64,000 nucleotides of DNA from Antedon mediterranea (Eukaryota > Echinodermata > Crinoidea > Comatulida > Antedonidae): contig NC_092675.1 in assembly GCF_964355755.1 (NCBI RefSeq), positions 5,678,312 to 5,742,311 of the forward strand, in the 5' to 3' direction. The notes beneath the pieces were generated by a model, which did not search any database, was not told the DNA's origin, and worked only from the letters and a program-made list of their open reading frames with translations. The first letter of the stretch is position 1. The number at the start of each line of letters is the position of its first letter. This document shows, one piece after another, positions 12,222 to 61,514 of this stretch. The position numbers and the translations under genes are program-made.

Positions 12222-12496
12222 GCAAGTTTTTTACATGTTGACTCCTGGTATAATGCTCTGTAAATACAAACTCTCATTCAATTTACAGTACAAACTGGCA
12301 AAACATAATTTTATATGCAAATGAGATCTTGCTATGTTTGACCAAATAAACAACTATAGAGGACAGCACAGTAGTTGCTAGATCAGATAAACATGTTTAA
12401 AATGGTTATACTTGACATACAATATTTTAATATTACGCAATTTCACAATTTTACCTAATTTTAATTACTTAATTTCTTTTTTTTTTTCTTTTGTAG

Positions 12497-12656
12497 TTAT
12501 AAAACCAAATTTCACAAAGTTGGTAAGAGACAGATATGTTAGTGAAGGTGAAAAGGTGACGATAACATGTGATGTCATTGGAAATCCTGTACCAAAACTA
12601 TACTGGATAAAAGATGGAGAAATCATAGATAAAATAAAAGGAATCAAAATATCAAA
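12497..12656 (+). CDS. NRG: neuregulin-like exon: Ig domain, first half
   Basis: The acceptor is a long T-rich tract ending TTTTGTAG; the donor is GTGAGT. The exon enters in phase 1 and leaves in phase 2. It encodes the N-terminal half of a C2-type Ig domain, with the first cysteine in VTITCDV and the conserved tryptophan in KLYWIKDG. It ends in GIKISK, which corresponds to the NIKIQK strand of vertebrate NRG1. It must be preceded by an exon ending in phase 1 that supplies a signal peptide, which was not found. Confidence 0.85.
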
Positions 12657-24600: not shown

Positions 24601-27600
24601 TTATCCTCCTCCTCTCACAAATCAAAATTATCTTTATTAAGAAAAACTAATTAAAATCTGTTGGAAGTTATTAGTAGTTGCTACGGAGAAGGGTAATATA
24701 GCATTATTTTCCTGTGTACCCTGTGTTATGTGTTTGTATGGATGATACTATTATTATTATTACGGGTTTGTGTTTATTGATTACAAGCTAAGTTCATCTA
24801 CTGTAATCCCACCTTTTTTCAGCATTTCTTTTATATAATTCCAAGACATTTATTATAATTTATTTTATTTGATTAGTTATTTTTCCATTCATATTAGCAA
24901 TATTTGTGCAGGCATCATGTTATGTGAAGTTAAATTGATTTTTTTTCTAAAGCTATCTTTAGAAATGTGTCAGAGGCTTGTTATGAGAGTCCTCCCAACT
25001 TGTTTGTTTTTGTCGGAGCGGCAAGTTAAAACGTGTCATCAATTGATTATCCGGAAGTGGTTTTGAAATAATGAAAGAAAATGTCACACATACTTGGCTA
25101 TAATTACAAACAATAAAGCAATGAATAGAACATATGAAATTCTACGGGGAAAATATTAAAAACAATAGTATAAACAATTAGTTTATTTGTAAAATTAGAA
25201 AAGTCATTTTTATTTGCTTATTTTATGAGATGATGCATGAATATTGTGCTTTGATTTTTAGTAAAAGTACACTGAAATTTAATTTTATACTTAAAGCCCC
25301 ATTCCCTCCTTTTTTTAGATCTAATTTAAGATCACAAACTATATTTAATGTAAAAATAATACTATATGATCCTATTGCGATAACTTTTTTCGTCTTTAAA
25401 CGGTTAAAAATGTGAAAAATAAGTCGATTCTAATAATTATAGCGGCCCGCTATAAATCCCAAAATGCATTGCGCGCGGATTGATATTTTTGTTTTTCACC
25501 TGTAATTCGCCCACTTTTCGATCGATGGTGAGGCCAAAACAAATGGAAGACTCATAACTTTTCAGCGAAAATACCTGGTTTACGTACGTTACCGATGTTT
25601 ACCAGCTAGGCCTACAAAACTAAGCCTAGCTAGGCTAGGCCTAAGACCGTCCACGAGAGGTCGATCGCCGCGAGCTACTTAGGTAGTGCATTGTTTCTCA
25701 CTTTTTATCATAATTTACCATAAAACGTACATTTAAGACAAGGAATGACATGGTTTAATGTTTTTAAAGTGATATATATGTATTATTTTCCAAAAAACGT
25801 CCAAAATTGCAGGGAAGGGGTCTTTAAGAAAAATAGTGACTGTATAGTTAACCATAACTAGTTAGACATTATACTTATTAATTTCCTATTTATTATTTTA
25901 AAATTTCTAATTATTATTTTAATAATTTTTATTTAGATATAGTTCATTTATTAGTTTGTAATCTGCTTTTTCTTGTTTTATTCAAGTTTAGAAAAATTAC
26001 AACTGACATATATTTGTTATTGTTGGTATACTACATTATTTTTTTTCCAGATCACTTTTGTTCTGTCCAAATCAATTACTGAATATAGATGTATTGTGCA
26101 TGATTGTGCATAAATTACAAACATACTCAATAAGCACATCAAGTTTAGCCCATCATCAAAATAATGTTTTAATTTGTTGTACTGTATTATAAATATCTGA
26201 CAAGGTTCAAACATGACATATTTTTATCGTCTTTCTGTAGATGTATGTGCAGTGAACTGTTACAATGGAGGTACCTTGAACGATAAAAAATGCAACTGCG
26301 CTTGCCCAGAAGGATTCATTGGAGAGTTTTGCGAAAATTCAGATATAGTAACAACAAAAGCACCACCAGCTTGTGACGGAATGTCATGTGGTGATTACGG
26401 TACACTTAATGAAACAAGGTAAACATAACTGTATTGTGCAATACCTCTGTTTCGAAATCCATCTGAATTTTCTCTACCTTTTGTATAATTAATGAATGAT
26501 TGCAAAACAGGAGTATTCATATGTTTATATTATAGTCTTATCATTCGGGATCGAAATATACATATTAAAATTTACCTTTACAAGGTCAAAAATACTACTC
26601 AGACAAGTAATGTACATAATTGCTAGTATATCAATACATTATGTATTAACATTTAGACATTTCTCTTTTACCTGGGCAGTGCAAGTCCCAAAACTACTAC
26701 AAGTTCTGTACTTTGGCAATAATGACATGACATTTTATTTCAGTTGTACCTGTAAGTGCCAAAAGTATTACTCAGGCAAGTACTGTACAGAGGATGACAC
26801 GCCCCCACCGTGTACGCTTCAGTGTGTAAATGGCGTACTTGATCGTGACAATTGTAGCTGTAATTGTGATCTGATGTACACAGGCCGTACTTGTAACAGT
26901 GAGTTTTTATTTAATTCATGTTGGCTGTCTAAAAAATTGGGAACTGTTATTTAGAGTTTTCTAATAATTCTTCATCTAGAAAATGGATTTTTCATTTTAG
27001 TTAGAAATACTACCTATTATCCCTCTCATCAATAATTTAAATGGAATAGTATTTTTCAATTATTGATAAACAGTTTTAAACTGTTCTAATAGAGATTAAA
27101 AATGCAAATATTTATTTTGATAAGTTTAAGAATATTAAATATTAATCTGATAAAAACCAACTCAATTTTGATAAACCTTTCAGGGAATCCTGAATCCTGA
27201 ACATCACCATAGCATAATATATTATTACAGTTATCGTGTCTGTGTTTCTGTCTTTGGGAAAACCTACACCTACGTGAAAAATGGATGTTTATAAAGAGGA
27301 AATTACAGTGCATTAACAAAAACATTTCTAATTGTTTGTTAATATCATTATAAGTAATATTGTTTTATTTTTAGAAAAAGATGAGAAGCCTTGCAGTAGA
27401 CCAGATATTTGTCTTAATGGAGGAACGTGTTATGCAACAAACAATAATGATGTTATTGAGTTGTGCTAGTAAGTTTATCAATCATTTTATTGCATCATGT
27501 TCCTTGAATTTTCATTTTGGTTCTATGTACATTTGCTGATGTAGCCACATTTATAATTATAAATTCAATTCAATATCTACCAAATGAAAAAAAAAATTAA

Positions 27601-30600
27601 AATTTCTATAAACCATAGAAATACTCTATGCATAAAAAGATGTATAAAACATATTTTTATACTCTTATGACTAAAAGACAAATGTTGCCGGTAATGGCTA
27701 GCTAGCTTATGTACAAAGTATAGGTCTCATTTGCTGTATTGTTATGGGAAATCTTATGTATCGCTAAAATGAAAGCTTACATGCATGTTTAATTTATATA
27801 TTCAGTTCTAAATTTCAGTGTGAACTGATGATTATTGCCTCTTATTTTCAGGTGTAAAATCGGTAATATATGGAGATGATACTTTTTATTGAACCAAATA
27901 CATATCAGATTTTTGTTGTATATATTATAATATATATGATATGATATTATATATACAGTAGATGACAAAATTGTCCTTGATATTGTGAATTGCAGTTACT
28001 ATTATGATAGTTATTAAATGCAAACAACATAAGTTAATTTCAATCACTACATTTTTCTTCAGCTGTCCTGATGGGTATTCTGGTAATAATTGTGGAATCA
28101 AGAACTGTAATTTAAATTGTGGAGATCATGGAGAACTGATGACTGACCCTTGTAGTTGTGTTTGTGATAAAGGCTACAAAGGTGCCCTTTGTGATGGTAA
28201 GCGTTTTAATATATATAGTAAAAGATATATTTATTTGGAAACTACAATAGGATGTTTACATTTTGAAAAATATTTGAAATAAAAGAATGGTATTGTACTA
28301 ATCTTTCAAAGGTATAGCCACTTTATTGTGAAAATAGAAGATAAATTTATATATATATATATATATATAAACACAAGAGGCAAAGAACAATATTGAACCA
28401 CTTACACTGTTAAATCACATTTCAGTTCTTTTATGATGATTTTCCTAATAAATTCAAATCAAAAATCTTTTTAAGCTAAAAAAATTGGTTGAAATCCTCT
28501 GAAAAGATATATTATAATTGCGATAAAAATGTGTGCTATTTTGACAAATGACATTGATTTCAGACGAGATTGTAGCAACGCCAACCAACAGCTTTTTACA
28601 ACAGTGTACAGATGAAAACTATAACAAGAACTACTGCTTTAATGAGGGAACATGTTACGAGTTTATTAGCGATCCCAACAAACACTTGTGTTTGTAAGTA
28701 TTAAAATAAATTAGTTTTTACAGATATGTTATATAAATATTACAATATTTTATTTCAAAATAAATTTAAACAGTAAACAATTAAGCTTAAAATAATTTAT
28801 AAAAAGAGCCTTTACATTTAGAAAACATTTTAGCATCACTAAAATCATTTCGCAATAGACAGATTTTTATAAAACGACAGAATACCATTTAAAATAAACG
28901 TGCTGACACTTCTGTTAGTATAATTAATATAGCTAATATAATTATAATATATTTTTTATTATGAAACAGAATTGGTTTATCATTTTTGTTTACTAATAAT
29001 TAGCAGTTAATATAGATGCGGTAATAATACAAATTTTACAAGTAAATATTTTGGTATCTAGTATTTAACATTCTAACTTCAAAATTCATTAATATAATAA
29101 TGGTAATAATTCAATAATTAATTCAATCTTAATGAAAAACTCATTTTTTGTTATGTTTATTCTTTTTTTCATTGTGATGTGTTGTTATATTCAATTTAGT
29201 ACTGAACTCTAATTTGCCTTACATTGTTCATATATTGTCCATTAAAACTAAATAAAGTGTTTATACCCATTAAAAAATATATATATATTTGGAATACCCT
29301 AAAAATGAAGTTAAATTTCTATGATAATTTGTTCAATTTTAATGGACATTACATCATTAAGTGTTGTACTTTTGTACTGCACTTTTCTGTATTGCACTTT
29401 GCTTGTTGGTTCTGCACTAATTGTTGTTGTATGTTTCTCAATCTCATTTAAAACCATTTAAATCACTCATTTCAATAATTTGACAATTTCAAATGTGAGA
29501 AAAAATGTCTCTTCACCTTAAGTATTATTATTTTTCATTCAAATTTTGTTTTTAAATAATTACAAAATTAATCTAAAATGGTTATGAGTACAATTATAGA
29601 GGAAAAACTGCTTGTACTATTTGGAAAATCAATCGTCCAACTTTAATTTTTTTTTTTCAGTTATAAAAACATTTATTTACATTTATGTATCTCTTCCAAC
29701 ATAAAATCATTGTGATAAATTGTATTGTACATGTTTATACATCATCTTCAGTGCATGTCATTAAATGGAACATTTGCATGCTTTCCGTTTTTGTGTGCTA
29801 CATTACAATAGCATAATTGTTTACATAATAATCTCATTATGTAAATTGAATAGAATCTTTGTATTATCATAAACATATTTGCATGTCTTATTTCACATTA
29901 ATGCACTTTTTGCATGTGTTTCTTAATATTTTAGTTTATGGATTTAAAATATTTGTTTATATATTTATATATACTAATATTTGATAAAGGATATTTATAA
30001 TTTACATAGTTAATAATGCAGTAAAACATTTACAAGTTTAATTTAAGAAATACATATTTATATTTCATTCACTACTAATATTTATATAATAAAATTAAAT
30101 ATGTAAATGAACAGGCACATAACAAATTCTAAATCGCACGGTGATGTACTGAAAGTTAATTAATTTAGGAAAGATAAAGATGAGGAAGTATGTGAGAATG
30201 AGAAAAAGCTGCAACAACCGAGAATGACCTAACAAAGTAAAAATATTATTACATCCCGAATAATAATACAAAATTTAATATATATTTTTATATGTAAATG
30301 AATATTCATATTTAATTAGGTACATTGGTATGATTGATAAATCATTAGTCGAAGTGTCATTTTTCATACAAATTTGAAACTTTTATGTCACCTGTCATGA
30401 TAAAATTATGCTCAGCCATTGTGTACAACTGTTTTTATTTTCATTTTATGTTTTGACATTTGTCATGTTTTCAATATTATACTCCAAACATGAATTAAAA
30501 GAATATTCATAATTAAAGAAGAACAAAATTGTTAAATTTAAAAATAGACAATCAACAGTTTAAATTATAAATTATCGTATTTTTTAACGAAATACATCAA

Positions 30601-42874: not shown

Positions 42875-43112
42875 ATTAAATAAATAAATGTTAACTTTTA
42901 GTTAAACCAGTTGACAAGTACTTACTTGCTACGTTTCAGCTACTTTCAGTAGCCTTGGTCACGGTGAATTGCGCCATCTCTCGTCTGATGTTCAGCTTTC
43001 TGCTGGTGTCCCCCTTTTGCGTGACCAAGGCTACTGAAAGTAGCTGAAACGTAGCAAGTAAGTACTTACTTGTCAACTGGTTTAACTAAAAGTTAACATT
43101 TATTTATTTAAT
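42875..43112. repeat. long near-perfect foldback (about 90-bp arms)
   Basis: Arms 42,875-42,963 and 43,020-43,112 are nearly perfect inverted copies (for example CAGCTACTTTCAGTAGCC and its complement). They are separated by a 56-bp G+C-richer loop, and the right arm has a 4-bp TAAG insertion. TGTATAGCATTA occurs immediately left of the left arm and again about 30 bp right of the right arm. It may be a foldback transposon or MITE. Confidence 0.85.
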
Positions 43113-43531: not shown

Positions 43532-43950
43532 TAATATTCATGAGACTAATTGCATATGCATAATTTGCTTCAACTTGTTAGCATAATTATTTATAATGTG
43601 GATGTAAGCTGTGATTTTTTTTATGAATATTCATGAGAACAATGGCATATGCATAATTTGCTTCAACTTGTTAGCATAATTATTTATAATGTGGATGTAA
43701 GCTGTGATTTTTTTTTATGAATATTCATGAGAATAATTGCATATGCATAATTTGCTTCAACTTGTTAGCATAATTATTTATAATGTGGATGTAAGCTGTG
43801 ATTTATTTTAATGAATATTCATGAGAATAATTGCATATGCATAATTTGCTTCAACTTATTAGCATAATTATATATAATGTGGATGTAAGCTGTGATTTAT
43901 TTTAATGAATATTCATGAGAATAATTGCATATTAATACTTGCTTCAACTT
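43532..43950. repeat. 93-bp tandem array, about 4.4 copies
   Basis: Units begin near 43,532, 43,626, 43,719, 43,812 and 43,906. Each carries the palindrome ATGAATATTCAT (or a close variant) and, in the first four, TTGCATATGCATAATTTGC or a close variant. Units are very similar, which suggests recent amplification. Confidence 0.85.
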
Positions 43951-44600
43951 TGACACATGTAAATTTGATTGGATGAAAGTTAATGAATGTTAAATAGTTT
44001 TACTGCACTGTTTATAATACTTTCTTAATAGTGTAGCTCTTCACTAGAAATTATTAAAAAATTAACTATTTGCAAAAAAAATTTAAATGTAAAAATATTA
44101 ATTAATCATGCAGCGTGTTTGTATATTTTCATATGTATTGTTTACTAAAAATTTATTTATTAACATTTGGTATGTGATTTAGCTGAAGTTTCAAAACAAT
44201 AATGATGTTCTACATATCTTCCTCAGGATAAAGACACCTCAACTCCTCCAATTAGATTTTACACTTGGCCCTGATAAACACCCACATTATAAATATAAGC
44301 ATCAGTTACTCTAATTAGAGACCAAACCTGGTAATAACAACTACATGTCTTTATCGGGCCTTGTCTTTAAATCGGTACTTAATGTTTGTTTTGGAGCATG
44401 CTCAGTACATGCTTGTAATCTAGTTCAGCTTTTATGACGAGTAAATGCAAAGATTCCAAAAAAGAAACCAATTTGATGTGTCATTTTACTTCAAACTATT
44501 ATTATTATTCAGCATTATTTTGAAGCAAAATAGTGCTGAAAAGTATGACATATTATGTGATTATAAAGCAAATTATTTATTATAAATGTGGTAATAACAA

Positions 44601-45895
44601 AATAACAAGGTTGTAATTTGCCCATTTTTCGACAAAATCCCTGTGCTATAGCATAGGGATTTTTTTTTAAATCGCACAAAATACAAACTTTTCAAAATGC
44701 GGTAATATCGCTATATGTGAACGTATATCACATTTTTATCCTCTTATACTGTCATAGGACAAAGTTATGTAAAAAAATAACATGGTTGTAATTTGCCCAT
44801 TTTTTGACAAAATCCCTGTGCTATAGTACAGGATTTTTCAATAAATCGCCCAACATACTCGACTTTTCAAAATGAGGTAATATCGCTATATGTGAACGTA
44901 TATCACATTATTATCCTCTTATGCTGTCATAGGACGAAGTTATGTAAAAAATATAACAAGGTTGTAATTTGCCCATTTTTCCACACAATCTCTGTGCTTT
45001 TGTACAGGGATTTTTTTTTAAAATTGCCCAAAATACAAACTTTTCAAAATGCGGTAATATCGCTATATGTGAACGTATATCACATTATTATCCTCTTATG
45101 CTGTCATAGGACAAAGTTATGTAAAAAAATAACAAGGTTGTAATTTGCCCATTTTTCGACAAAATCCCTGTGCTATAGTACAGGGATTTTTCAAAAAATC
45201 GCCCAAAACACAAACTTTAAAAAATACTGTTATATCGCTATATGTGCACGGACATCGCATTTTTATCCTCTTATACTGTCATAGGACGAAGTTATGTAAA
45301 AAAATAACAAGGTTGTAATTTGTCCATTTTTTTACAAAATCCCTGTGCTATAGTACAGGATTTTTCAATAAATCGCCCAACATACTCGACTTTTCAAAAT
45401 GAGGTAATATCGCTATATGTGCACGTATATCACGTTATTATCCTCTCATGCTGTCATAGGACGAAGTTATGTAAAAAATATAACAAGGTTGTAATTTGCC
45501 CATTTTTCCACACAATCTCTGTGCTATAGTACAGGGATTTTTTTTAAAATCGGCCAAAACACAAACTAAAAAAAAAAAATAATATCGCTATATGTGCACG
45601 GACATCGAATTATTATCCTCTTATACTGTCATAGGACGAAGTTATGTGAAAAAATAACAAGGTTTTAATTTGCCCATTTTTGGAAAAAATCCTTGTGCTA
45701 TAGTACATGAATTTTTCCAAAAATCGCCCAAAATACAAACTTTTCAAAATGCGGTAATATCGCTTTATGTGCACTTATATCACGTTATTATCCTCTTATA
45801 CTGTCATAGGACAAAGTTATGTAAAAAAATAACAATGTTGTAATTTCTCCTTTTTTGACAAAATCCCTGTGCAATATCGCTATATGTGCACGCAT
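44601..45895. repeat. 175-bp satellite, about 7.3 copies
   Basis: The motif GGTTGTAATTTGCCCATTTT recurs at a spacing of 174-176 bp from 44,609 to 45,836. Most units contain the inverted repeat AAATCCCTGT ... ACAGGGATTT, or a close variant, around GCTATAG, and also TATCGCTATATGTG. Frames within the array are shadows of the repeat. Confidence 0.9.
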
Positions 45896-46521
45896 TATTA
45901 TTATTTGCGAATCGGAATTTTGCTACAGACAAATTTAATTTCAAAAATATGATTTATTGGTCCTCATTGACTGTTAAAATACAATTTCTTTAAATATAAA
46001 TAAAATTACTTTATAATTAATTAACAAGATATTTTGGTAATACTTATATATTGTTACAAAACCTCATGTTGTCATGAGCATGTTTAGACTGACCTGCCAC
46101 TACTTCTACCAAGGATTATATTCAGAGATATTTGGCACCAATAAAGAAATTAATCTTCACACACTAATAATTATAATTGGTACATGATCAACATAAAATA
46201 ACTGTGCTTCTTCTCAGAGCAGCACACATCAACACAGTATACACTGTTAGGAAATTCTGCACCATAAACAAATTAGATTCTGTCAAAGTCAACACAGCAA
46301 ACAATCAACTATCATCTATTTAATACTTGGCCTCTCATAGGTCACTCAGTTAATAAGTTAAAATAATACTTAAAAATCATACACAAGCTTACAGACATTA
46401 CCTGTAAGCCTCTAAAAACAAGTAAACATGAAATTGTTTCTGATATATTTTTTATTATAAACATTTTAAAACTTAATAATTAAGTGAGCACAGTCTATCA
46501 CATCTTAATTATTTCAAAGAT
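45896..46521. other. spacer and probable 3' UTR of the antiporter gene
   Basis: AT-rich, no coding sequence. It directly follows the minus-strand antiporter stop. A TTTATT at about 46,449 is AATAAA on the minus strand and could be its polyadenylation signal. Confidence 0.5.
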
Positions 46522-46767
46522 TTAGACAAATGTTTGCTTGTAACTGTCAGATTCTGATGTTTTTTCATCCACTTCACCAGGTATTTCTCCATTTGTAGCG
46601 TTGGTTGCCAAGTCTGGAACTTTCTCATCCGCCATCACCTCAACATATTCATGAAGTGTATTTTCTGGTAGTGCATTGCTTTGCAGAAGCTTTGGTCCAG
46701 TCAACATGATTAGGATTGCACCAATAGGAGCAGTGAGGAGGATGACAAGAACTGCTATTGTTAAGAT
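46522..46767 (-). CDS. SLC9B2: SLC9B2 exon 9 (last)
   Basis: Acceptor TTTACATTCACAG|ATC; phase 0 in; 81 residues plus stop. It encodes the final membrane segment (ILTIAVLVILLTAPIGAIL), then TGPKLLQ and a hydrophilic C-terminal tail. The first about 50 nt and the acceptor are the template of the adjacent 67-bp array. Confidence 0.92.
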   Translation of the reverse strand: MLTIAVLVILLTAPIGAILIMLTGPKLLQSNALPENTLHEYVEVMADEKVPDLATNATNGEIPGEVDEKTSESDSYKQTFV

Positions 46768-49700
46768 CTGTGAATGTAAAGATTGCACCAATAGGAACAG
46801 TGAGGAGAATGACAAGAACTGCTATTGTTAAGATCTGTGAATGTAAAGATTGCACCAATAGGAGCAGTGAGGAGAATGACAAGAACTGCTATTGTTAAGA
46901 TCTGTGGATGTAAAGATTGCACCAATAGGAACAGTGAGGAGAATGACAAGAACTGATATTGTTAAGATTTGTGAATGTATTGTAAAGATTGCACCAATAG
47001 GAGCAGTGAGGAGAATGACAAGAACTGCTATTGTTAAGATCTGTGAATGTAAAGATTGTACCAATAGGAAGAGTGAGGAGAATGACAAGAACTGATATTG
47101 TTAAGATTTGTGAATGTAAAGATTGCACCAATAGGAGCAGTGAGGAGAATGATAAGAACTGCTATTGTTAAGATCTGTGAATGTAAAGATTGTACCAATA
47201 GGAACAGTGAGGAGAATGACAAGAACTGCTATTGTTAAGATCTGTGAATGTAAAGATTGCACCAATAGGAAGAGTGAGGAGAATGACAAGAACTGCTATT
47301 GTTAAGATCTGTGAATGTAAAGATTGCACCAATAGGAGCAGTGAGGAGAATGACAAGAACTGCTATTGTTAAGATCTGTGGATGTAAAGATTGCACCAAT
47401 AGGAACAGTGAGGAGAATGACAAGAACTGCTATTGTTAAGATCTGTGAATGTAAAGATTGCACCAATAGGAACAGTGAGGAGAATGACAAGAACTGCTAT
47501 TGTTAAGATCTGTGAATGTAAAGATTGCACCAATAGGAGCAGTGAGGAGGATGACAAGAACTGCTATTGTTAAGATCTGTGGATGTAAAGATTGCACCAA
47601 TAGGAACAGTGAGGAGAATGACAAGAACTGCTATTGTTAAGATCTGTGAATGTAAAGATTGCACCAATAGGAGCAGTGAGGAGAATGACAAGAACTGCTA
47701 TTGTTAAGATCTGTGAATGTAAAGATTGTACCAATAGGAAGAGTGAGGAGAATGACAAGAACTGATATTGTTAAGATTTGTGAATGTAAAGATTGCACCA
47801 ATAGGAGCAGTGAGGAGAATGACAAGAACTGCTATTGTTAAGATCTGTGAATGTAAAGATTGCACCAATAGGAACAGTGAGGAGAATGACAAGAACTGCT
47901 ATTGTTAAGATCTGTGAATGTAAAGATTGCACCAATAGGAGCAGTGAGGAGAATGACAAGAACTGCTATTGTTAAGATCTGTGAATGTAAAGATTGCACC
48001 AATAGGAGCAGTGAGGAGAATGACAAGAACTGCTATTGTTAAGATCTGTGAATGTAAAGATTGCACCAATAGGAGCAGTGAGGAGAATGACAAGAACTGC
48101 TATTGTTAAGATCTGTGGATGTAAAGATTGCACCAATAGGAGCAGTGAGGAGAATGACAAGAACTGCTATTGTTAAGATCTGTGGATGTAAAGATTGCAC
48201 CAATAGGAACAGTGAGGAGAATGACAGGAACTGCTATTGTTAAGATCTGTGAATGTAAAGATTGCACCAATAGGAGCAGTGAGGAGAATGACAAGAACTA
48301 ATATTGTTATGATCTGTGGAGGTTAAGATTGCATCAATAGGAGCAGTGAGGAGAATGACAAGAACTGCTATTTTTAAGATCTGTGAATGTAAAGATTGCA
48401 CCAATAGGAAGAGTGAGGAGAATGACAAGAACTGATATTGTTAAGATTTGTGAATGTAAAGATTGCACCAATAGTAACAGTCAGCAGAATGACAAGAACT
48501 GCTATTGTTAAGATCTGTGAATGTAAAGATTGCACCAAGAAAAGATCTGTGAATGATATCTTTGTTTTCTACACGATTTTTTTTTTTTTTTAAATAGAAC
48601 TGGAATTTACAATATGTTACTATCAAGAGGCTTAAAGTACAAATTAGGTTACCTCAAAACAAGATTAATGTAAATAATGTGTATAAGATAAGCCTACTAA
48701 GCAAAATAAACAATAACAAACATGATCAAAAAAATTTAGATTACTAAACAATATTGCATCATTTTAGGATAGATATCAGAGCTATCTATAAACCCAGATC
48801 TATAGCTGCTGGCAATAGTCCAGGTTTACTTCCTAATCATTTCTAATAGGTGCATTGAGCAATAAAACAATTGTATTTAACTTTGGTTTATGTTTATAGC
48901 AGTATTAAATATGCTGTCAAACAAAATACTGTAATTTACATGCTAAATGTATACAATGTCTTACTTGTCTTCCCAGATCTTCAAGGTGTTCTTCAGCCCC
49001 ACGTTCTCTTGCTGTATCCAAAGCAACTGATCCAATTGCAGCCTGTAATCAATAACATTTTATCCTTCTTATAATCTTTTTAGTAACATTTAAGATATTC
49101 GATTTAGTTGTGATGTTAGTATTTATAGTCTTTGCATAGTAAGTATATATTGTGGAATTATCAAAATGTACTGCTTCTCATGTAATAAAAGTATATTTGT
49201 AAATTATAATCAATTTTCCTTGACATTCTACGGTATTCTTGCTACCGTTATAATAACAGTTCTATAAATATTTTTAGGAAACAATATATTTTCCAACGTA
49301 ACAATCTACTGAGTGACATACCTGTACTGTAGCCTTAGGTAGCCAGGCTATTGCAACAAACACCTTCTCTTTAATAGTAAGACCAGCACCACTCACAGCC
49401 AGTATGGAGACTAATATTCGAGCAGTAAGACCAGTAAAAACAACAGCCAAACCTAGACCTATAAGCATACAATTGGTCATTTTTTAGGTGCGAGAGCTTC
49501 TACTGTATGATAAACACAGCAATTATTTATGAGAAAACTCAATATCTGCAGTCAATTCTTGCATTCAAATTTATCATACACATATTAAAAGTTTACGAAA
49601 TGTTCCTTACCAATTGATGATGGTTCAAGGTAGCTTAGTTTGACCTCTGCACCAATAAGGCCAAAAAGTAAAGGTTGAAATATTATCCACATGAATTCCA

Positions 49701-52578
49701 TCAATTTTTCAATTGGTTCCTAAAAGACAAAGGAAAAGAACAAAGGCTATACTTTTGAATCCTTCATCAATGAATTTGAACTAAGATTACCATTGTTATA
49801 AATGATTAACACAAAACAAAGTTAAGCTACACAAGGCAGTCAAAGAGAGACACTACCGATGTCTATTTTATTTTAGGTTATGTTGCAAGACGTCTTTATT
49901 ATTTACCTTATTTGGTTTCCAACCGTATCCAGCCACAAAAGCCATCGTAAGGCAACCTAAAGCACCTGCACCAGACAACTCGGCAACATTACTCCCAAAA
50001 ATATAAAACAGACCTGTACAAAACAGAAGCAGGAATCTCATAAACGAAACTTTAACCTTGAAAAAAGAAAAACAAGGAATGGGAATTGAGAACGATTTGA
50101 CTTCCACATTAGATGACATTATTGGTTGGCAAAGCAGAAGGTAGGCATTTAAGTGTACAAATTATTTACCTGATTTTGATTTGGTATATACCAAAGAATG
50201 ACACCAGACAAAACACCAACACTAACCCCAATGATTAACTCAAGTGGACCACGAAAAATGCTGTACAACAAGTTTCCTACCAAAAAAAAAAAAAAAAAAA
50301 TGACAATAAATTTCATTTCCCAAGATTTAAATTAGGTGAAATTAATTATTTTGAAACTAGCAAGCATTCAAGTACTACTAAATAAAACTATAAAATAAAA
50401 TGATTCCTTACATTTTTTTCAATTTTATAAATCAAAAACCATAACACAAAACAACCTGTATGCACAAAATATGGTAATGGCAGGGACATCCTGCAAAATA
50501 AGCATTCACTCTACCCCTAAGATATATCTTTAGGCAATGATAGTATACCTGTTGAAAATGCTGATCCAAGTAGCACACCAAACACACTAATGGCAAGGAC
50601 GTCATCACAACTAGCTGCAGCTATCACCAGTGTTGGGATACCTTTAGTGACTCCATATCCTCTATCTTGTAAACTTAGAAGGGTTGGTACAATCACAGCA
50701 GGCGTTACTGCTCCCAAGACAAACCTGATATAGAACAAAGTATTTCATTGGTCAAGTACATACTTAAAATCATAATCTTCCACATGGCACAAACAATACA
50801 TGTATGTCTAACAACAATTATGTTAAAATGTTTGAAAAATAGACAATGGTTTTTATACTACTGTAGGTATGTTATAAACATGTAGGGCCGGGTTATTTGT
50901 ACACAACATGATCATTATAATAATAGATAGGGATAACCCATTTAAACTGCCTCAGGTACACTCTAAATATTATTGCAGTTTACTTTCAATTAACCACAGG
51001 CGGATCCAAAGGGGTCTGTCTAATTTGTTTATAAAATAAAATGTACACAATAGATTCAGCACTTCATTTTACAAATGTTAGGTCCTAGCCATCCACCATC
51101 TCGATTTAAAAATCCTGGATTCACCAATGTTACTGGTAGAAGCTAATTCCAAGTTTGTGTTGAGTTACATGGTAATAAAAAATAATCCCTAAATATACTA
51201 TACCCCAACATAAATCCCCACACCCATGGGAAGCCCAGCAACAGGTTTGCAGTAATGCCTACTGTAACTGCTTCAGCTACACACGGCATACAGCATAAAC
51301 GGACACATACACAACTGAGACGCCGTAGTGCGTCAGCATCTAGGCCTAGCCCTGCACGAATCAGAATAACAACCAATGCCATGCTGCGCAGAGATGATGA
51401 CCATTCTGGGTAAATATCCTCAGCAAAGTTGATAGCTGGTACATTTCCAAGTAAAAATCCAACAATTAACATTCCTAAAATGAACAATCAATAAGCGAAA
51501 TATAAAACATTTTAATATTGATAGATAACAGTGTTTCCTAAAAAATAATTTATTATAATTAGCTATACAAAGGCCATAAAGCCATTAAAATCGATCCTTT
51601 ATATTAAATCTTCTAAAATAGGATCATATAATAATTATGATAATGCTGGTGATAATGATGTTGTCTTCTTAAATTCAGTTTTTAAAACATAAAATAACAA
51701 TTCACTTTCAGCCAAAATTAAAGATGGAATACATAATATCAATAATGATGCTGATATTGATGATGTTGAGCATGAGGGTTAACAATGGCTTAGTAGTTTT
51801 AAACATCCAGTCAAAAGCTCTGTCTACACTATCAAATTAGTTTGACAACAAAGCGTGATGTGCCCAATTATGCTAGTAATATGACATCATTATGATCATA
51901 CATGGGCACATCACATTTTGTTTTTACTTAAAGTTTGATAGTGTAGACAGAGCTTAATGTAATATTTCAAGGAAAATATTTGCGTTTAAGATTTTTCTGT
52001 AGATTGAAAATACTGTTTCTTTAATGTCTCTTAATCACACAGATCATATTTGAATCTAAAAAATTCAGAACATAATCCATTTTATTACATTGTTCTTCTT
52101 TAAACTTACCAAGAAGTTCGGGTAGCTTAATCAGTTGTATAAGAACACCACCAAGTTGACAAAGAACAACCAAAAGAAAGAGTCCAAATAAGTTTCCCCC
52201 AGGAAGCGCCTCCTCTCCTGTTATTGCCCACAGCATGCCCCAGCTTACACCCAATAGCAGAACACACAGCAAAAGGTTAGAGAATGTTCCATGAGGAGGG
52301 CACATCATTGCATATTTAAGCCGTTGCATTATGGTGGGATTTTGTCTGTGTTTATAATACTTTGACATCCATGGCTTAAAAGCAACCATGTAAGATTGTT
52401 TACAGTTACTGCAGCAACCATTGCTCTTGTCATCTTTTGAATTTTCGTTTAATTTTATGTTTCTTTCACAATTGATTTGCCCATCATCACTAATTGTGGC
52501 CAATCTTATTTGTATAGAATTTATTGTGTTGTTATCTGTCTCCTCCATCTTTCTGTTTGTAGCCTCCATAGATGCCAT
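46522..52578 (-). CDS. SLC9B2: sodium/proton antiporter, SLC9B2 (NHA2) type (multi-exon span)
   Basis: Nine minus-strand exons join in phase to 1,743 nt, 580 residues plus stop; human SLC9B2 has 537. Family-typical segments appear in order: ALPGGNLFG; SSSLRSMALVVILIRAGLGL; GFVLGAVTPAVIVP; RGYGVTKGIPTLVIAAAS; the ion-binding Asp pair at about residues 287-288 (SCDDVLAIS); FQPLLFGLIGAEV; AWLPKATVQAAIGSVALDTA; and LTAPIGAIL. NHA2 proteins exchange Na+ or Li+ for H+ across plasma, mitochondrial or endolysosomal membranes. All hallmark motifs are intact, so the gene looks functional. It converges with the neuregulin-like gene, and its last intron holds a 67-bp array derived from its own last exon. 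SLC9B1 is the only close alternative. Confidence 0.93.
46712..48556 (-). repeat. 67-bp tandem array copied from the exon 9 acceptor
   Basis: About 27 copies of a 67-bp unit, counting exon 9 itself; one unit, near 46,978, has 5 extra bases. On the minus strand each unit reads ATCTTAACAATAGCAGTTCT, runs through the codons for LVILLTAPIGAI and ends CTTTACATTCACAG. So every unit carries a splice-acceptor sequence followed by the first codons of exon 9. The many overlapping minus-strand frames here are shadows of this repeat. Units differ by a few substitutions, and similar unit variants recur at 670 bp (10 units), for example at 47,051 and 47,721. Confidence 0.95.
48557..48964 (-). other. rest of antiporter intron 8
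   Basis: Unique AT-rich intron between exon 8 and the 67-bp array, with a run of T at about 48,578-48,591. No gene seen. Confidence 0.7.
48965..49042 (-). CDS. SLC9B2: SLC9B2 exon 8
   Basis: Acceptor TTGATTACAG, donor GTAAGA; 78 nt, phase 0 at both ends. It encodes AAIGSVALDTARERG followed by EEHLEDLGRQ. The human protein has AAIGSVALDTARSHG at this point. Confidence 0.92.
49322..49458 (-). CDS. SLC9B2: SLC9B2 exon 7
   Basis: Acceptor TGCTTATAG, donor GTATGT; phase 1 in, phase 0 out. It encodes a membrane segment (LAVVFTGLTARILVSILAV), then TIKEKVFVAIAWLPKATVQ. The WLPKATVQ motif is characteristic of the NHA/CPA2 group. Confidence 0.92.
49611..49719 (-). CDS. SLC9B2: SLC9B2 exon 6
   Basis: Acceptor TGTCTTTTAG, donor GTAAGG; phase 0 in, phase 1 out. 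It encodes EPIEKLMEFMWIIFQPLLFG then LIGAEVKLSYLEPSSIG. The FQPLLFGLIGAEV block is strongly conserved in SLC9B2. Confidence 0.92.
49907..50056 (-). CDS. SLC9B2: SLC9B2 exon 5
   Basis: Acceptor CTTTTTTCAAG, donor GTAAAT; 150 nt, phase 0 at both ends. It encodes a membrane segment (FMRFLLLFCTGLFYIFGS), then ELSGAGALGCLTMAFVAG and GWKPNK. The human counterpart is PGSGGLCTLVMAFLAGMGW. Confidence 0.92.
50170..50276 (-). CDS. SLC9B2: SLC9B2 exon 4
   Basis: Acceptor TTTTTGGTAG, donor GTAAAT; phase 1 in, phase 0 out. It encodes NLLYSIFRGPLELIIGVSVG, then VLSGVILWYIPNQNQ, matching the human VLRGVLEVVIGVATG region. The exon is short (36 codons) and has no initiator methionine, so it is recognised from phase and family similarity. 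Confidence 0.88.
50549..50724 (-). CDS. SLC9B2: SLC9B2 exon 3, ion-binding Asp pair
   Basis: Acceptor TTCTATATCAG, donor GTATAC; phase 2 in, phase 1 out. It encodes FVLGAVTPAVIVPTLLSLQ, GYGVTKGIPTL and SCDDVLAISVFG. The two adjacent aspartates (about residues 287 and 288) correspond to the transport-site Asp pair of NHA2 (D278/D279 in human). Both are present, so transport activity is expected. Confidence 0.93.
50725..51203 (-). other. antiporter intron 2
   Basis: About 480 nt of AT-rich intron with no further exon. Confidence 0.75.
51204..51474 (-). CDS. SLC9B2: SLC9B2 exon 2
   Basis: Acceptor TTCATTTTAG, donor GTATAG; phase 1 in, phase 2 out. It encodes MLIVGFLLGNVPAINF, then WSSSLRSMALVVILIRAGLG and RRLSCVCVRLCCMPCVAEA, ending FPWVWGFMLG. 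All blocks align by eye with human SLC9B2 (for example SSSLRSIALSIILVRAGLGL). Confidence 0.93.
51475..52109 (-). other. antiporter intron 1, containing a MITE
   Basis: About 635 nt intron. A family A foldback MITE occupies 51,815-51,957; the rest is AT-rich. Confidence 0.8.
51815..51957. mobile_element. foldback MITE, family A copy 2
   Basis: Ends AAGCTCTGTCTACACTATCA on the left and the complement of TTAAGCTCTGTCTACACTAT on the right; about 140 bp. The interior also shares GTGATGTGCCCAATT-type sequence with the copy at 13,685. Non-coding. Confidence 0.85.
52110..52578 (-). CDS. SLC9B2: SLC9B2 exon 1
   Basis: The ATG at 52,578 begins MASMEATNRKMEETDNNT; a second Met is at residue 4. A hydrophilic cytoplasmic N-terminus of about 95 residues follows, including a Cys cluster (GCCSNCKQ). 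Then come CPPHGTFSNLLLCVLLLG and ALPGGNLFGLFLLVVLCQLG, ending IKLPELLG. Donor GTAAGT; phase 1 out. The CPPHG and LPGGNLFG motifs are typical of SLC9B2. No acceptor-like site forces a different start. Confidence 0.9.
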
Positions 52579-52856
52579 ATCTTTGTAAAAATTGTGAAAA
52601 AAAGTGTCATGACACTAGTGATAATAAAGAATTAAATTATTTACAAACCACTAAAGCCTCCTTCATTTGATTTAGCACACTAAATTAGAAAATATACACT
52701 AAAAAATAGAAAAAAAAAATTTACTGATTAACACTATATTAATATACTTTCCTTTACAAAAATGAAAGTATAGTATTATTAACTAAACATTTTAGGCTAG
52801 CTAGGAAAGGAGTTGAAACACAATGCCATTTTATGTTGTTGAGTGGAATAGATTTC

Positions 52857-53460
52857 TTAGACTGGTGGTGGACCATTGTCACTTATCAGTATGTCGGGTA
52901 TACAATATCGTCCAATGTGTCTCATCAATTTGTCAATGACTGATTTTGCAGTGGTGGAGTGTAGATGGTGGAGTGTAGATGGTCTACTTCCCAAAAATTG
53001 GAGTAGTAGAATACTGTTATCAAGTAGTCCTTTCCATTAAAATGGAACAAATCAACTCCAATTTTTTCCCATGGGCGTTCAGGAAACTCATGACTCTTTA
53101 GTGACTTTGATGCTTGAGAGATACTATGCTAATTGCATGTTTCGCACCGTTCTATGCACTGCTTGACTTCTTCATTCATGTTGGGCCTGTAGACTTGTTC
53201 TCTAGCTCGGCGTAATGTTGATTCAACACCATGTGACCAATGTGGAGGTATTGATAGATTTTCCCCCGAAAGACTAAATCATCGTATATGCTTAGCCCAT
53301 CTCTCATGCTGAAGTATGGTTTCAGTCTCTGGTCTAGCTGATTCTTATGATCAGGCCATCTGTTTCAGATGCAATTCTTCAGCATATGCTGGACCTCGTC
53401 ATGTGCCATTTTGTGGCCTGGGAGGGTTAAATGTTGTACAGCGTTTAACTACCTCAAGTC
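52857..53460 (-). pseudogene. Ty3/gypsy integrase remnant
   Basis: The minus strand encodes an HHCC-type zinc-finger region ending in ERCETCN. The start of the catalytic core follows (WEKIGVDLF), then SDNGP at 52,869-52,886. Stop codons and a 15-bp tandem duplication near 52,956-52,985 interrupt the frame. The D-D-E core is incomplete. Confidence 0.75.
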
Positions 53461-53510
53461 TGCAATGAGATTGTTTCGTCCTTGCATGTACTTGATCATA
53501 GCATCATAAG

Positions 53511-53985
53511 CTAAAGCACGAAGGAGCATCGATGGTGTTCTCGTCTTAGGTAATTTTTTAGGTTGCCGGGGTCTATGCATATTCTGAGGCTACCAGATTT
53601 CTTTTTGGCCACTGACATCTGACTCACCCAATCAGTTGGCTCGTTTATTCTGCTTAAAATGTTCTGTTCGACCATTTTTCCAATTTTCATTTTCACCTCA
53701 GGTTTGAGGGCTTCAGGAATACCTCTTGGTGGTCTTACAATGGGCATGCTATCTTTACTTATAGTGATGTGAACTTTACCTCCAGGTAGGACTCCTGTCT
53801 TTGTGTCATCAAATACCTCCTTATATTCTTGAATGAAGCCAGGTAGAGTGTACTTTTGTAGTTATCTGTCTGTTATCAATCCCATTTGTTCGGTTGCCGT
53901 TCATCTTAAGATAGGCGTAAAGTCTTTCTCCACGACCACACAATGAAAATTGTACTGCTTCCCATTCGAGGTTTTTTTTATTGGT
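53511..53985 (-). pseudogene. Ty3/gypsy reverse transcriptase N-terminal remnant
   Basis: The minus strand shows the protease-RT linker (VVVEKDFTPIL), then FDDTKTGVLPGG, and the RT start with RPPRGIPEALKPEVK, EPTDWVSQM and LRICIDPGNL. It ends shortly after REHH; the palm and catalytic YxDD are missing. A stop and a frame change occur in the linker. Confidence 0.8.
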
Positions 53986-54720: not shown

Positions 54721-55505
54721 GTTATGCGCGATTTCAACGATTTGCGCAATTTGAAATTGCGCAAAAAAATCCTTGCGCAATTTCAAATTGCGCAAAGAAT
54801 TCTTGCGCAATTTAAAATTGCGCAAGGATTTTTTTGCGCAATTTCAAATTGCGCAATCAACTTGCGCAAGAAAATCTTTGCGCAATTTTAAATTGCGCTG
54901 CACAATTTGTAAATTGCGCAAGATAGTTCTTGCGCAATATGACACCTTTGCGCAATTTGAAAACGAACTGTAAATTTTCCCATACATGGCTAGGCTAGGC
55001 CTAGGCAGAGGAGTTTAAAATTTAGTATTTTATTATATAAATAAGACCATTTCAATGAAGATAATGTTTAATAATACTCGCTTTTTAAGTTTATAATATT
55101 AGTTTAAGCTAGGCCATGTAACCTAGTCAGTATCAGTAGTCCAGACCCTAGCTAAACTAGAGTAGTATAGCCGGCCGCCCGCGCCGCGCCCGCCTGGTGG
55201 AACACCACCGCTTCGTTTTCCTTCGTTGGTTCTTCGACGGTATGCTAACTTATAACAATATTTGCACTACTAAAATAAGGAAATGCGATATTTATCTTTA
55301 ATTTTGAATCATTCTTAGAAATTACTATAAAAATATGGGTGTGCATGATTTCACAATCTGTCGAAAAACCTTGCGCAATTTGCAGATTACTTGCGCAATT
55401 TAATACGTTGCTTGCGCAATTTGAAACACATGTTTCAATTCAAATTGCGCAAGGATTTTTTTTGCGCAATTTCAAATTGCGCAAATCGTTCAAATCGCGC
55501 ATAAC
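54721..55505. mobile_element. TTGCGCAA palindrome element, copy 1
   Basis: Terminal inverted repeats: GTTATGCGCGATTTCAACG on the left and the complement of GTTATGCGCGATTTGAACG on the right, continuing for roughly 70 bp. Inside, subterminal blocks are built from palindromes of the form TTGCGCAATTTNAAATTGCGCAA; I count 19 TTGCGCAA by eye. The centre holds a G+C-rich stretch (GCCGGCCGCCCGCGCCGCGC) and the hairpin GGTGGAACACCACC. No coding potential; 785 bp. Confidence 0.85.
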
Positions 55506-55561
55506 ACATTCATTTTAAGTGTCTTAATGTACTTTATTTCTTCTTAATGTTGGTTGCATAT

Positions 55562-56355
55562 GTTATGCGCGATTTGAACGATTTGCGCAATTTCAAATTG
55601 CGCAAAAAAATCCTTGCGCAATTTGAAATTGCGCTAAGAATTCTTGCGCAATTTAAAATTGCGCAAGGATTTTTTTGCGCAATTTGAAATTGCGCAATCA
55701 ACTTGCGCAATTTAAAATTGCGCAAGAAAATCTTTGCGCAATTTTAAATTGCGCTGCACAATTTGTAAATTGCGCAAGATAGTTCTTGCGCAATATGACA
55801 CCTTTGCGCAATTTGAAAACGAACTGTAAATAGTTCAAGATAGTTCTAGGCCTAGGCAGAGGAGTTTAAAATTTAGTATTTTATTATAAATAAATAAGAC
55901 CATTTCAATGAAGATAATGTTTAATACTCACTTTTTAAGTTTTTAATATTAGTTTAAGCTAGGCCATGTAACCTAGTCAGTATCAGTAGTCCAGACCCTA
56001 GCTAGGCTAGAGTAGTATAGCCGGCCGCCCGCGCCGCGCCCGCCTGGTGGAACACCACCGCTTCGTTTTCCTTCGTTGGTTCTTCGACGGTATGCTAACT
56101 TATAACAATATTTGCACTACTAAAATAAGGAAATGCGATATTTATCTTTAATTTTGAATCATTCTTAGAAATTACTATAAAAATATGGGTGTGCATGATT
56201 TCACAATCTGTCGAAAAACCTTGCGCAATTTGCAGATTACTTGCGCAATTTAATACGTTGCTTGCGCAATTTGAAACACATGTTTCAATTCAAATTGCGC
56301 AAGGATTTTTTTTGCGCAATTTCAAATTGCGCAAATCGTTCAAATCGCGCATAAC
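55562..56355. mobile_element. TTGCGCAA palindrome element, copy 2
   Basis: Second copy, 794 bp, with the same ends and core; about 19 TTGCGCAA sites by eye. It is separated from copies 1 and 3 by 56-bp spacers (55,506-55,561 and 56,356-56,411) that are identical or almost so. This suggests that element plus flank were duplicated together. Confidence 0.85.
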
Positions 56356-56411
56356 ACATTCATTTTAAGTGTCTTAATGTACTTTATTTCTTCTTAATGT
56401 TGGTTGCATAT

Positions 56412-57175
56412 GTTATGCGCGATTTGAACGATTTGCGCAATTTCAAATTGCGCAAAAAAATCCTTGCGCAATTTAAAATTGCGCAAGGATTTTTTTGCGC
56501 AATTTGAAATTGCGCAATCAACTTGCGCAATTTAAAATTGCGCAAGAAAATCTTTGCGCAATTTTAAATTGCGCTGCACAATTTGTAAATTGCGCAAGAT
56601 AGTTCTTGCGCAATATGACACCTTTGCGCAATTTGAAAACGAACTGTAAATAGTTCAAGATAGTTCTAGGCCTAGGCAGAGGAGTTTAAAATTTAGTATT
56701 TTATTATAAATAAATAAGACCATTTCAATGAAGATAATGTTTAATACTCACTTTTTAAGTTTTTAATATTAGTTTAAGCTAGGCCATGTAACCTAGTCAG
56801 TATCAGTAGTCCAGACCCTAGCTAGGCTAGAGTAGTATAGCCGGCCGCCCGCGCCGCGCCCGCCTGGTGGAACACCACCGCTTCGTTTTCCTTCGTCGGT
56901 TCTTCGACGGTATGCTAACTTATAACAATATTTGCACTACTAAAATAAGGAAATGCGATATTTATCTTTAATTTTGAATCATTCTTAGAAATTACTATAA
57001 AAATATGGGTGTGCATGATTTCACAATCTGTCGAAAAACCTTGCGCAATTTGCAGATTACTTGCGCAATTTAATACGTTGCTTGCGCAATTTGAAACACA
57101 TGTTTCAATTCAAATTGCGCAAGGATTTTTTTTGCGCAATTTCAAATTGCGCAAATCGTTCAAATCGCGCATAAC
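56412..57175. mobile_element. TTGCGCAA palindrome element, copy 3
   Basis: Third copy, 764 bp, nearly identical to copy 2 except for the loss of one subterminal palindrome block. Its right end abuts the protease remnant of the gypsy element (minus-strand CCTAAGAAATATG), so the original insertion was into that gene. Confidence 0.85.
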
Positions 57176-59430: not shown

Positions 59431-60612
59431 TTAATTTATTTTTAAACATCTCAGACACTGAAAGCTGGCAATTATGATTAGGTATACAAACAAGATTGAC
59501 TGAACTGATAGAAGAAGTATTTGAATAATACGTTTAAAGAAAATGTTAGATGTTTCATAAGGCTGAGATTCATCAGATGAGTGAAATGTTTCACTCGCCA
59601 TTAAACCAGTGTCTATTCTGTGAACTTCTGTGCTGGATTTGAGACATTCTTCTATTTTAATTGTCGTTGATTTCAAAATATCACCTGTGTTTACTGAACA
59701 CGTTATGTTTTCTCCTTGCATTTCACAAGTAATATGTCTAATAAATAAGTTATTTGATAAATTAGCTTCTTGTATTTCCTCGTTAAAAATCACTTCGTTT
59801 GTTGAATTCCATCGAAATTTGATCTCTTTAAGATGTGTATAATAATTTATGCTTTTAGCAATCAATGATGTTTTTGGTTTCCAATCAAAAGCATAACACC
59901 AAATTGTTGCGGATTGATTAAGGATAAATTCTGTTGCATTGATTTTGACCACAACGGGACGTTTTATAACAACGGTAGATATACACAAATGTACGTTATT
60001 CGTTGTCATTTTGCATGTGTAATCAGTTCCCTCATCGCTATCCATTGCTATGAACATAGCACTACTAATAACCTTGTTCTTATTTGTAGTATTAGTAAAA
60101 ACCGAGTGTTTAGGAAATTGTTTTGCATCCCAGTGCAACTTTAAATATGGATATGGGTATGTTTCACAATTTAATGTGACATTGTCACCGACAAAGTACT
60201 CTGATTTTGAAGGGATACATACCGGGTCTGAAGGTATAGGCAGCACTACTAGTTCCATCTTACCAGAATTAACAAGCAATCCATTGCCTTGATATATACA
60301 TTCGTAAACGCCACTGTCTGTTTCATATAGGTTTATTGAAAGGACACTTTCTAGCCGCAGTGTTTCCATTAACGTCGACACTACAGATTCTGTCATTTCA
60401 ATTTCAACATCATTTTTCTTCCATATGGTATTTTTGATGACCGTTTGTGCTTCAAACCCTTTACCAATATCAAAATCACAGTAAAATGTAAACTCCTTAC
60501 CGGCAACAGCATAACTAATGCCTCTTCCAGGATAGCACTGTAGAACGTCAGTTGATTTAATTATGGATAAGGAAAGTAACAGGTAAATTAGAAAATTTAA
60601 CAAATGACCCAT
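59431..60612 (-). CDS. single-exon Ig-superfamily type I membrane protein
   Basis: 393 codons without interruption. Residues 1-20 are a signal peptide (LLNFLIYLLLSLSII). Ig 1 has C45, W64 and the D-x-G-x-Y-x-C motif ending at C105. Ig 2 has C149, W161 and DYTC at C200, plus extra cysteines at 132 and 210. A third, divergent Ig-like region spans about 222-322 (C239, C296, C305). A stalk of about 35 residues precedes a hydrophobic segment at about 364-383, and the cytoplasmic end is only about 10 residues. Seven N-glycosylation sequons lie at 144, 174, 225, 232, 269, 284 and 302. There is no signalling motif, so it may act as a ligand, adhesion molecule or co-receptor. TTTTCATTTCTTCAG directly before the ATG could be an acceptor, so a 5' UTR intron is possible. 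I do not recognise an ortholog. Confidence 0.85.
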   Translation of the reverse strand: MGHLLNFLIYLLLSLSIIKSTDVLQCYPGRGISYAVAGKEFTFYCDFDIGKGFEAQTVIKNTIWKKNDVEIEMTESVVSTLMETLRLESVLSINLYETDSGVYECIYQGNGLLVNSGKMELVVLPIPSDPVCIPSKSEYFVGDNVTLNCETYPYPYLKLHWDAKQFPKHSVFTNTTNKNKVISSAMFIAMDSDEGTDYTCKMTTNNVHLCISTVVIKRPVVVKINATEFILNQSATIWCYAFDWKPKTSLIAKSINYYTHLKEIKFRWNSTNEVIFNEEIQEANLSNNLFIRHITCEMQGENITCSVNTGDILKSTTIKIEECLKSSTEVHRIDTGLMASETFHSSDESQPYETSNIFFKRIIQILLLSVQSILFVYLIIIASFQCLRCLKIN

Positions 60613-61514
60613 ACTGAAGAAATGAAAATGCGTCCCAGTGTAAAAAAATGTACGGTTGACTTACATGTGATCCAGTACAATAACTTGTACAGTACAGTAC
60701 AATAAATACGCCTGTTTCTCTAATTCCTTTTTTCATTACGAGTTTCAATTTGTTTTAAATTTGTATACATTAATGAAATCCGCTATTTGCAATGTCTTTC
60801 GATTTCAATCGATCAAACTTGTAGGTGATCAAACGCTTTGATCTTAACGCTTGATATAAACAATTCTATTAAATTTACGATTTTACACTTTTCATAACGC
60901 TAATTGATACTTTCAGTTTCTCATTATGTAATAAAGGTTTGTAATCGGCTTCTTCTTTTCCAGATTGCACATTATAAAAGTAATATGTAATACGAAAAGA
61001 TGGTAGATATTACCTGTTTGCATTGTCAATATTATTTCATTTAAAAAGAATTAAACTTCATACAAATGATCGATAGGAAACTGAACGTAAAGAAAAGAAA
61101 AATTCCATTTTTTAGGTAAGCATAACAGAACTTAAAGTTTATTAAATTTACGGTAAATATGAAAATCCAACACCATACATGGAAAGTAAAGATGTATGAA
61201 AAGTAAACTGAACATTAAGATATTGATTACTGTAATTGGTTTTATTACAGTCGAGGATTTAAATTTCATAAGTAACATTGCTTTGATTGATGGATAATTT
61301 AACCACATAAATAGATTATTCTGTTTTAATGGATTATTAAATTTCTGACTTTCTCTTTCAAATCAAATTGTTTATTTTAGTTTTCATTCAGTAAATAAAG
61401 TAAATTTCCATCAATGTAGAAAATCATACTGTTAGGCCTAATGTCTTTCTACTGTATTGTGCATTCCATCGCATTTAATATTTTACAAATCGTTTCTCCT
61501 TTTATTACGTTATT
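60613..61514. other. upstream region of the Ig-superfamily gene
   Basis: AT-rich; would contain the promoter and any 5' UTR exon of the minus-strand Ig gene. No coding evidence. Confidence 0.5.

Follow-up and report, generated by a model that had tools for sequence, protein, structure and literature searches.

A probable mirage-type minisatellite spanning the last intron-exon boundary of an SLC9B2-like antiporter gene in the crinoid Antedon mediterranea

Minisatellite-like repeats lying over exon-intron boundaries have been described in amphioxus under the name of mirages (PMC3087553), and the genes concerned are Adh3, the globins BflGb6 and BflGb9, and troponin C. In BflGb6 the 3' end of an intron is repeated together with the 5' part of exon 2, six times in one haplotype and three times in the other, and the edges of the cluster are excluded from homogenisation (PMC3087553). 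Reverse transcription PCR (RT-PCR) suggested that the globin mirages are spliced regularly, and some of their copies are without splice signals (PMC3087553). The units of the Adh3 mirage are given as 10–72 bp, and elsewhere imperfect repeats in PGBD5 are added and troponin C is mentioned (PMC3902484). The locus reported here belongs beside these cases. It lies in a stretch of 64,000 nucleotides of Antedon mediterranea DNA (contig NC_092675.1, positions 5,678,312 to 5,742,311; hereafter the window, whose own numbering is used throughout) and consists of 26 tandem copies of a 67-bp unit that carries the splice acceptor of the terminal exon of an SLC9B2-like Na+/H+ antiporter gene. It is likely that this array is a largely neutral minisatellite of the mirage type, grown from a duplication of the intron 8/exon 9 boundary, and that splicing most likely proceeds mainly to the last copy.

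Two human examples show related arrangements. In ABCA7 a variable number tandem repeat (VNTR) in intron 18 is built of a 25-bp repeat that starts with the donor of exon 18 and varies in number from 12 to about 427 units; of its donors the one nearest the exon is canonical, and the donor one unit further on gives a minor product (PMC5954066). Like the Antedon array, it is a tandem repeat that includes a splice signal, and it differs in lying on the donor side, in its 25-bp intronic unit, in belonging to an internal exon and in having a known length effect. Genes in human segmental duplications contain internal tandem repeats, on average of 30-bp units in four copies, some of which are situated at exon-intron boundaries (PMC2812944). 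There, as in Antedon, expansion of a minisatellite at a boundary alters gene structure, although the human boundary repeats are linked to novel introns.

On the minus strand, each copy of the Antedon unit joins 13 bases of intron, the last five being CACAG, to the 54 coding bases with which exon 9 begins (TTTACATTCACAG followed by ATCTTAACAATAGCAGTTCTTGTCATTCTCCTCACTGCTCCTATTGGTGCAATC); these 54 encode the last membrane helix, ILTIAVLVILLTAPIGAI. The array occupies the 3' end of the last intron (intron 8) and is continuous with exon 9, which itself opens with copy 27. Tandem Repeats Finder (TRF) reported positions 46714–48538 with a period of 67, 27.2 copies, 94% matches and a score of 3269. 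As the highest score in 100 dinucleotide shuffles of positions 46600–48700 was 65, chance is excluded as a source of the array. A sequence-only reading of the stretch had proposed that the exon 9 acceptor and roughly its first 50 coding bases were amplified about 26-fold in tandem, and this was borne out. Its count of 27 near-identical acceptors stands for the copies, the true site included, but not for the acceptors as such, the AG being intact in only 22 of the 26 array copies and CACAG being replaced by CACAA in the other four (Table 1). The step from copy to copy is 67 bp in 25 of 26 instances and 72 bp in one; a 5-bp insertion lies before the copy denoted u24.

Within the array of 26 copies the mean pairwise divergence is 4.5%, and a single site separates exon 9 from the nearest of them. 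The first four copies average 4.0 differences from the consensus and the remaining 22 average 1.5 (permutation p = 0.0148, on a small sample and with the cut at four copies picked after the data had been seen). The distance between units is lowest at a lag of 10 units (2.0, compared to 2.43–3.62 for the other lags of 1–13), perhaps as a result of block duplication. The same variation bears on whether the repeat was falsely expanded or collapsed during assembly. Tandem arrays are often misassembled, and in the lancelet draft genome the mirage of BflGb6 seems to have been misassembled (PMC3087553); here, however, variants are irregularly interspersed, private substitutions and one 5-bp insertion occur, the edge is degenerate, and the public protein is placed on a 31.7-Mb record, all of which make an artefact improbable.

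The array shares its geometry with BflGb6, in that an intron 3' end is repeated together with an exon 5' part. It also resembles mirages in that the repeat spans an exon-intron boundary, that the signal is kept in many but not all copies (22/26), and that the edge of the array is the more diverged part (4.0 versus 1.5 differences). Unlike BflGb6, with its 6 and 3 units of 150–160 bp, Antedon has 26 extra copies of 67 bp, and unlike the amphioxus mirages the array belongs to an echinoderm and adjoins a terminal exon, where the use of a decoy would swap the tail of the protein. Judged by the sequence features examined, it is of the known mirage kind. Among the papers surveyed no echinoderm case of such a repeat appeared, which does not prove that none has been published.

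The helix encoded by the unit is conserved, reading ILTIAVLVILITAPIGAI in Anneissia, with close versions in the Protein Data Bank (PDB) chain 7b4l and in a brittle star, a sea urchin and a sea star. As the helix is present in other echinoderms and in 7b4l, the exon represents the ancestral sequence from which the array was derived, which agrees with the earlier suggestion of a minisatellite born from an exon. The array would go back to a tandem duplication that spanned the intron 8/exon 9 boundary in the crinoid gene and would have grown to 26 extra copies, probably by unequal exchange or conversion.

The copies contain 20 distinct variants, 6 of them intronic and 14 coding. The coding variants comprise 11 nonsynonymous and 3 synonymous changes, where 68–69% nonsynonymous changes are expected at random (binomial p = 0.57). 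Helix position A13 is changed in 13 of the 26 copies, four of which read leucine via a second change, and L7 is replaced by proline in copy u5; both positions are invariant among 8 aligned rows, yet altered in the copies. The variant tests are small and the variants few; as far as such a sample tells, the copied codons appear to behave as unconstrained, neutral sequence. No sign was seen that decoy products exist or are selected, and a regulatory role is without support here. The neutral drift of the copies, the acceptor-killing variant in 4 of 26 and the less homogenised edge all support the reading of the array as a neutral repeat.

The 30 bases before the splice site are alike in the array and true acceptors except for scattered substitutions, the 5-bp insertion (before u24) and truncated sequence (before u1). 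The pyrimidine fraction at -20 to -5 is 0.69 in 27 of 27 copies, the range in the gene's 7 other acceptors being 0.50–0.94, and it was rightly anticipated that coding pyrimidines of one unit precede the acceptor of the next. Candidate branch points were matched to the motif yUnAy. In 25 of 27 copies such a candidate, which reads CTCAC in the standard unit, occurs at -34 within the coding part of the preceding copy; it lies at -36 for u1 and -39 for u24, and copies u2–u27 are free of AG over the 48 bases before the site. The truncated edge copy at the far upstream end retains an AG in poor context, with a pyrimidine fraction of 0.44 (versus 0.69), another AG 11 nt upstream and no yUnAy candidate beyond -4. 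Copy 26 would now supply the true acceptor with both its branch-point candidate and its pyrimidine tract. Since branch-point candidate, tract and AG are common to array and true acceptors, the signal that discriminates the true site must, on these features, lie outside the repeated unit, candidates being its position, the poly(A) signal and the non-repeated part of exon 9.

Such a reliance on copy 26 raises the question of whether the array might help, its many upstream U2AF and branch-point sites forming a recruitment platform by which exon 9 is spliced more strongly. Upstream of the true acceptor's own 13 intron bases there do lie 54 bases that are the coding part of copy 26; CTCAC stands at -34, and the 48 bases preceding the site are free of AG. 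The four lost AGs and the neutral drift of the copies show no sign of selection, however, and we regard a helpful role as quite unlikely. Inverted repeats that could loop out the array were sought at 46400–49050, where no pairs of 14 bp or more were found. The unit was rejected as a mini-exon, as its best internal GT contexts reach only 5 of 9 positions of the donor consensus.

A scan of positions 48960–46200 on the transcript strand for AATAAA and ATTAAA gave only 46456 and 46324, beyond the exon 9 stop. With poly(A) signals at these two places only, the last exon would measure about 330 nt from the true site and about 400–2080 nt from the array sites, if cleavage is taken to occur 20 bases after 46456. 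A distal bias could arise from terminal-exon definition, a mutual recognition of the last acceptor and the signal for 3' end processing (PMC3737548). Under a neutral mirage-type array, this process would pair the poly(A) signal with the acceptor nearest to it, producing the last exon of about 330 nt. The amphioxus globin mirages, for which RT-PCR suggested regular splicing, are a precedent for distal splicing here, and the public A. mediterranea protein carries the distal exon 9 tail. Leakage to upstream copies would presumably be tolerated, its product keeping the membrane domain and swapping the tail, with no downstream junction for decay.

The outcome of such leakage was predicted by splicing exon 8 in silico to each array copy, including the four without AG. 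All 26 full copies read the helix in its own frame and reach a stop ahead of the normal protein end, in keeping with the earlier argument that a 67-bp unit, being 1 modulo 3, would lead from an upstream acceptor to a premature stop or a shifted frame. The predicted number of residues after exon 8 is 46 for 22 of the 26 full copies, while the other four give 70 (two copies), 61 and 37; among the 22 with an intact AG it is 46 for 20, with 61 and 70 for one copy each. Splicing to the edge copy is predicted to lose the helix and add 12 residues. The product of a full copy would retain the membrane domain and exchange the normal tail for a short one, typically FTFTDLNNSSSCHSPHCSYWCNLYIHRS; for 20 of the 22 intact-AG copies this tail is 28 residues long, counted from the end of the helix.

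These predictions bear on a poison-acceptor rheostat, which the sequence-only reading had raised and by which decoy transcripts would be removed through nonsense-mediated decay. An early stop does follow from every array copy. Junction-dependent decay, though, requires an exon junction downstream of the stop, and as the array acceptors would open a terminal exon, no junction follows the stop and decay of this type is not expected; all the stops lie in the would-be terminal exon, AATAAA/ATTAAA occurs only past the normal stop, and the helix is kept while the tail is swapped. The 3' untranslated regions of up to about 1.9 kb (26 full copies) could provoke decay in some animals, and decay by way of a long 3' untranslated region is possible. 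The rheostat is thus not supported and is very improbable.

The upstream acceptors might otherwise be used appreciably to produce the short alternative tail, with array length setting the ratio, in the manner of a tail switch or dosage rheostat. The AG kept in 22 of 26 copies, the helix frame kept in 26 of 26 and the lack of expected junction-dependent decay are all consistent with this, and repeat length does alter splicing in ABCA7. Against it, the alternative tail was found in neither of two protein searches: exon 8 joined to the alternative tail matched 4 proteins up to E 10, all with ordinary SLC9B tails, and when the alternative-tail region was searched within the full protein none of 10 candidates was at E 10 or better. 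As the collections searched are not a transcriptome of A. mediterranea, the absence of alternative-tail proteins counts as weak evidence. The helix changes at invariant A13 (13/26) and L7 (proline in u5), the nonsynonymous to synonymous ratio, which is as for neutral sequence, and the acceptors lost in 4 of 26 copies also speak against a switch, which we consider unlikely. The same low probability attaches to its more specific form, in which 22 usable acceptors of an expanding minisatellite would yield a membrane-complete antiporter with mostly the 28-residue tail, in proportion to array length, and escape decay through having every stop in the last exon.

Several observations weigh against a neutral array spliced mainly at its last copy. 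Skipping of exon 19 in ABCA7 rises with repeat length (PMC5954066), human boundary repeats may create introns, often with transcripts that retain the repeat (PMC2812944), and a C. elegans minisatellite is enriched near regions of multiple alternative splicing (PMC4039745), so that repeats of this sort are not always silent. Variable positions make up 14 of 54 in the coding part and 6 of 13 in the intron part, a difference that is not significant (Fisher p = 0.18; p = 0.74 without two positions caused by the 5-bp insertion). The use of the distal acceptor rests on the public gene model, which was possibly picked by homology. Finally, if 22 intact decoys compete serially with equal chance, capture per site must stay below 3.1% for 50% correct transcripts and below 0.48% for 90%, which is demanding.

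The predicted gene product is an SLC9B/NHA antiporter, in that the domain and close SLC9B2 relatives are both present. The Pfam domain PF00999 (Na_H_Exchanger) was found in it, and its PDB matches are sodium/hydrogen exchanger 9B2 chains 7b4l (E 1e-141) and 7p1i (E 1.8e-135). The public Antedon mediterranea protein (P0001, 570 aa) is 100% identical over 98% of the query, its start lying 10 residues downstream of that in our gene model. The exon 9 tail is identical in this protein and recognisably similar in that of Anneissia (P0002); the other aligned proteins part from it shortly after an LTGPKLL-like motif. The coordinates of the features are collected in Table 1.

Table 1. Features of the antiporter locus, in window coordinates.
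Feature	Position	Strand	Description
SLC9B2-like Na+/H+ antiporter gene	46522..52578	minus	9 coding exons, 580 aa, GT-AG gene model
Coding exons 1–9 of SLC9B2-like gene	52578-52110, 51474-51204, 50724-50549, 50276-50170, 50056-49907, 49719-49611, 49458-49322, 49042-48965, 46767-46522	minus	
True exon 9, coding part	46522..46767	minus	last membrane helix and C-terminal tail; first 54 bases = copy 27 of unit
Tandem array upstream of exon 9	46768..48527	minus	26 copies of the 67-bp unit (13 intron + 54 coding bases), 22 with intact AG
Copies with lost acceptor (CACAA), exon-start positions	48447 (site 48447..48448), 47777, 47107, 46968	minus	
Truncated edge copy, far upstream end	48528..48559, exon start 48546	minus	CATTCACAG, exon start, ATCTT, then shortened remnant to GGTGCAATC
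First AATAAA after exon 8 in transcript	46451..46456	minus	none in array

Several minisatellites surround the single antiporter gene. Directly downstream of it, positions 44595–45876 hold a 175-bp repeat in 7.3 copies with an internal palindrome around CCCTGTGCTATAGTACAGGG, and a 94-bp repeat in 4.5 copies (95% matches) is found at 43533–43950. Three tandem stretches about 820–856 bp apart, at 54742–57041, carry foldback arrays of TTGCGCAATTT; their 300-nt blocks are 98–100% alike between copies, except that one comparison without gaps, involving the first copy, gave 64%. An inverted repeat at 42875–43112 has arms of 56 nt (95% complementary; inner 48 nt, 100%) and resembles a foldback element or one of the miniature inverted-repeat transposable element type. 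Elsewhere in the window, the minus strand at 52850–53900 looks by eye like a broken gypsy-type retroelement polyprotein, and its open reading frame at 53511–53861 had no Pfam match at E 0.001. A 409-residue open reading frame at 59431–60660 (minus) contains an immunoglobulin domain (Pfam Ig_2, E 4.1e-11). The plus-strand region 12391–28282 includes an I-set immunoglobulin match (12391–12660) and, at 27989–28282, a teneurin-type EGF match below the Pfam curated cut-off. An Rfam scan of the window gave no matches at gathering scores.

The array suggests that mirage-type boundary minisatellites are not confined to lancelets. With 22 near-identical decoys in one intron, it offers a naturally occurring case in which terminal-exon definition can be tested against splicing on a first-come-first-served basis, position and downstream context being what remains as information able to mark the true site. 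Should a length-tunable tail switch prove true after all, regulation of the antiporter would vary between individuals by repeat number.
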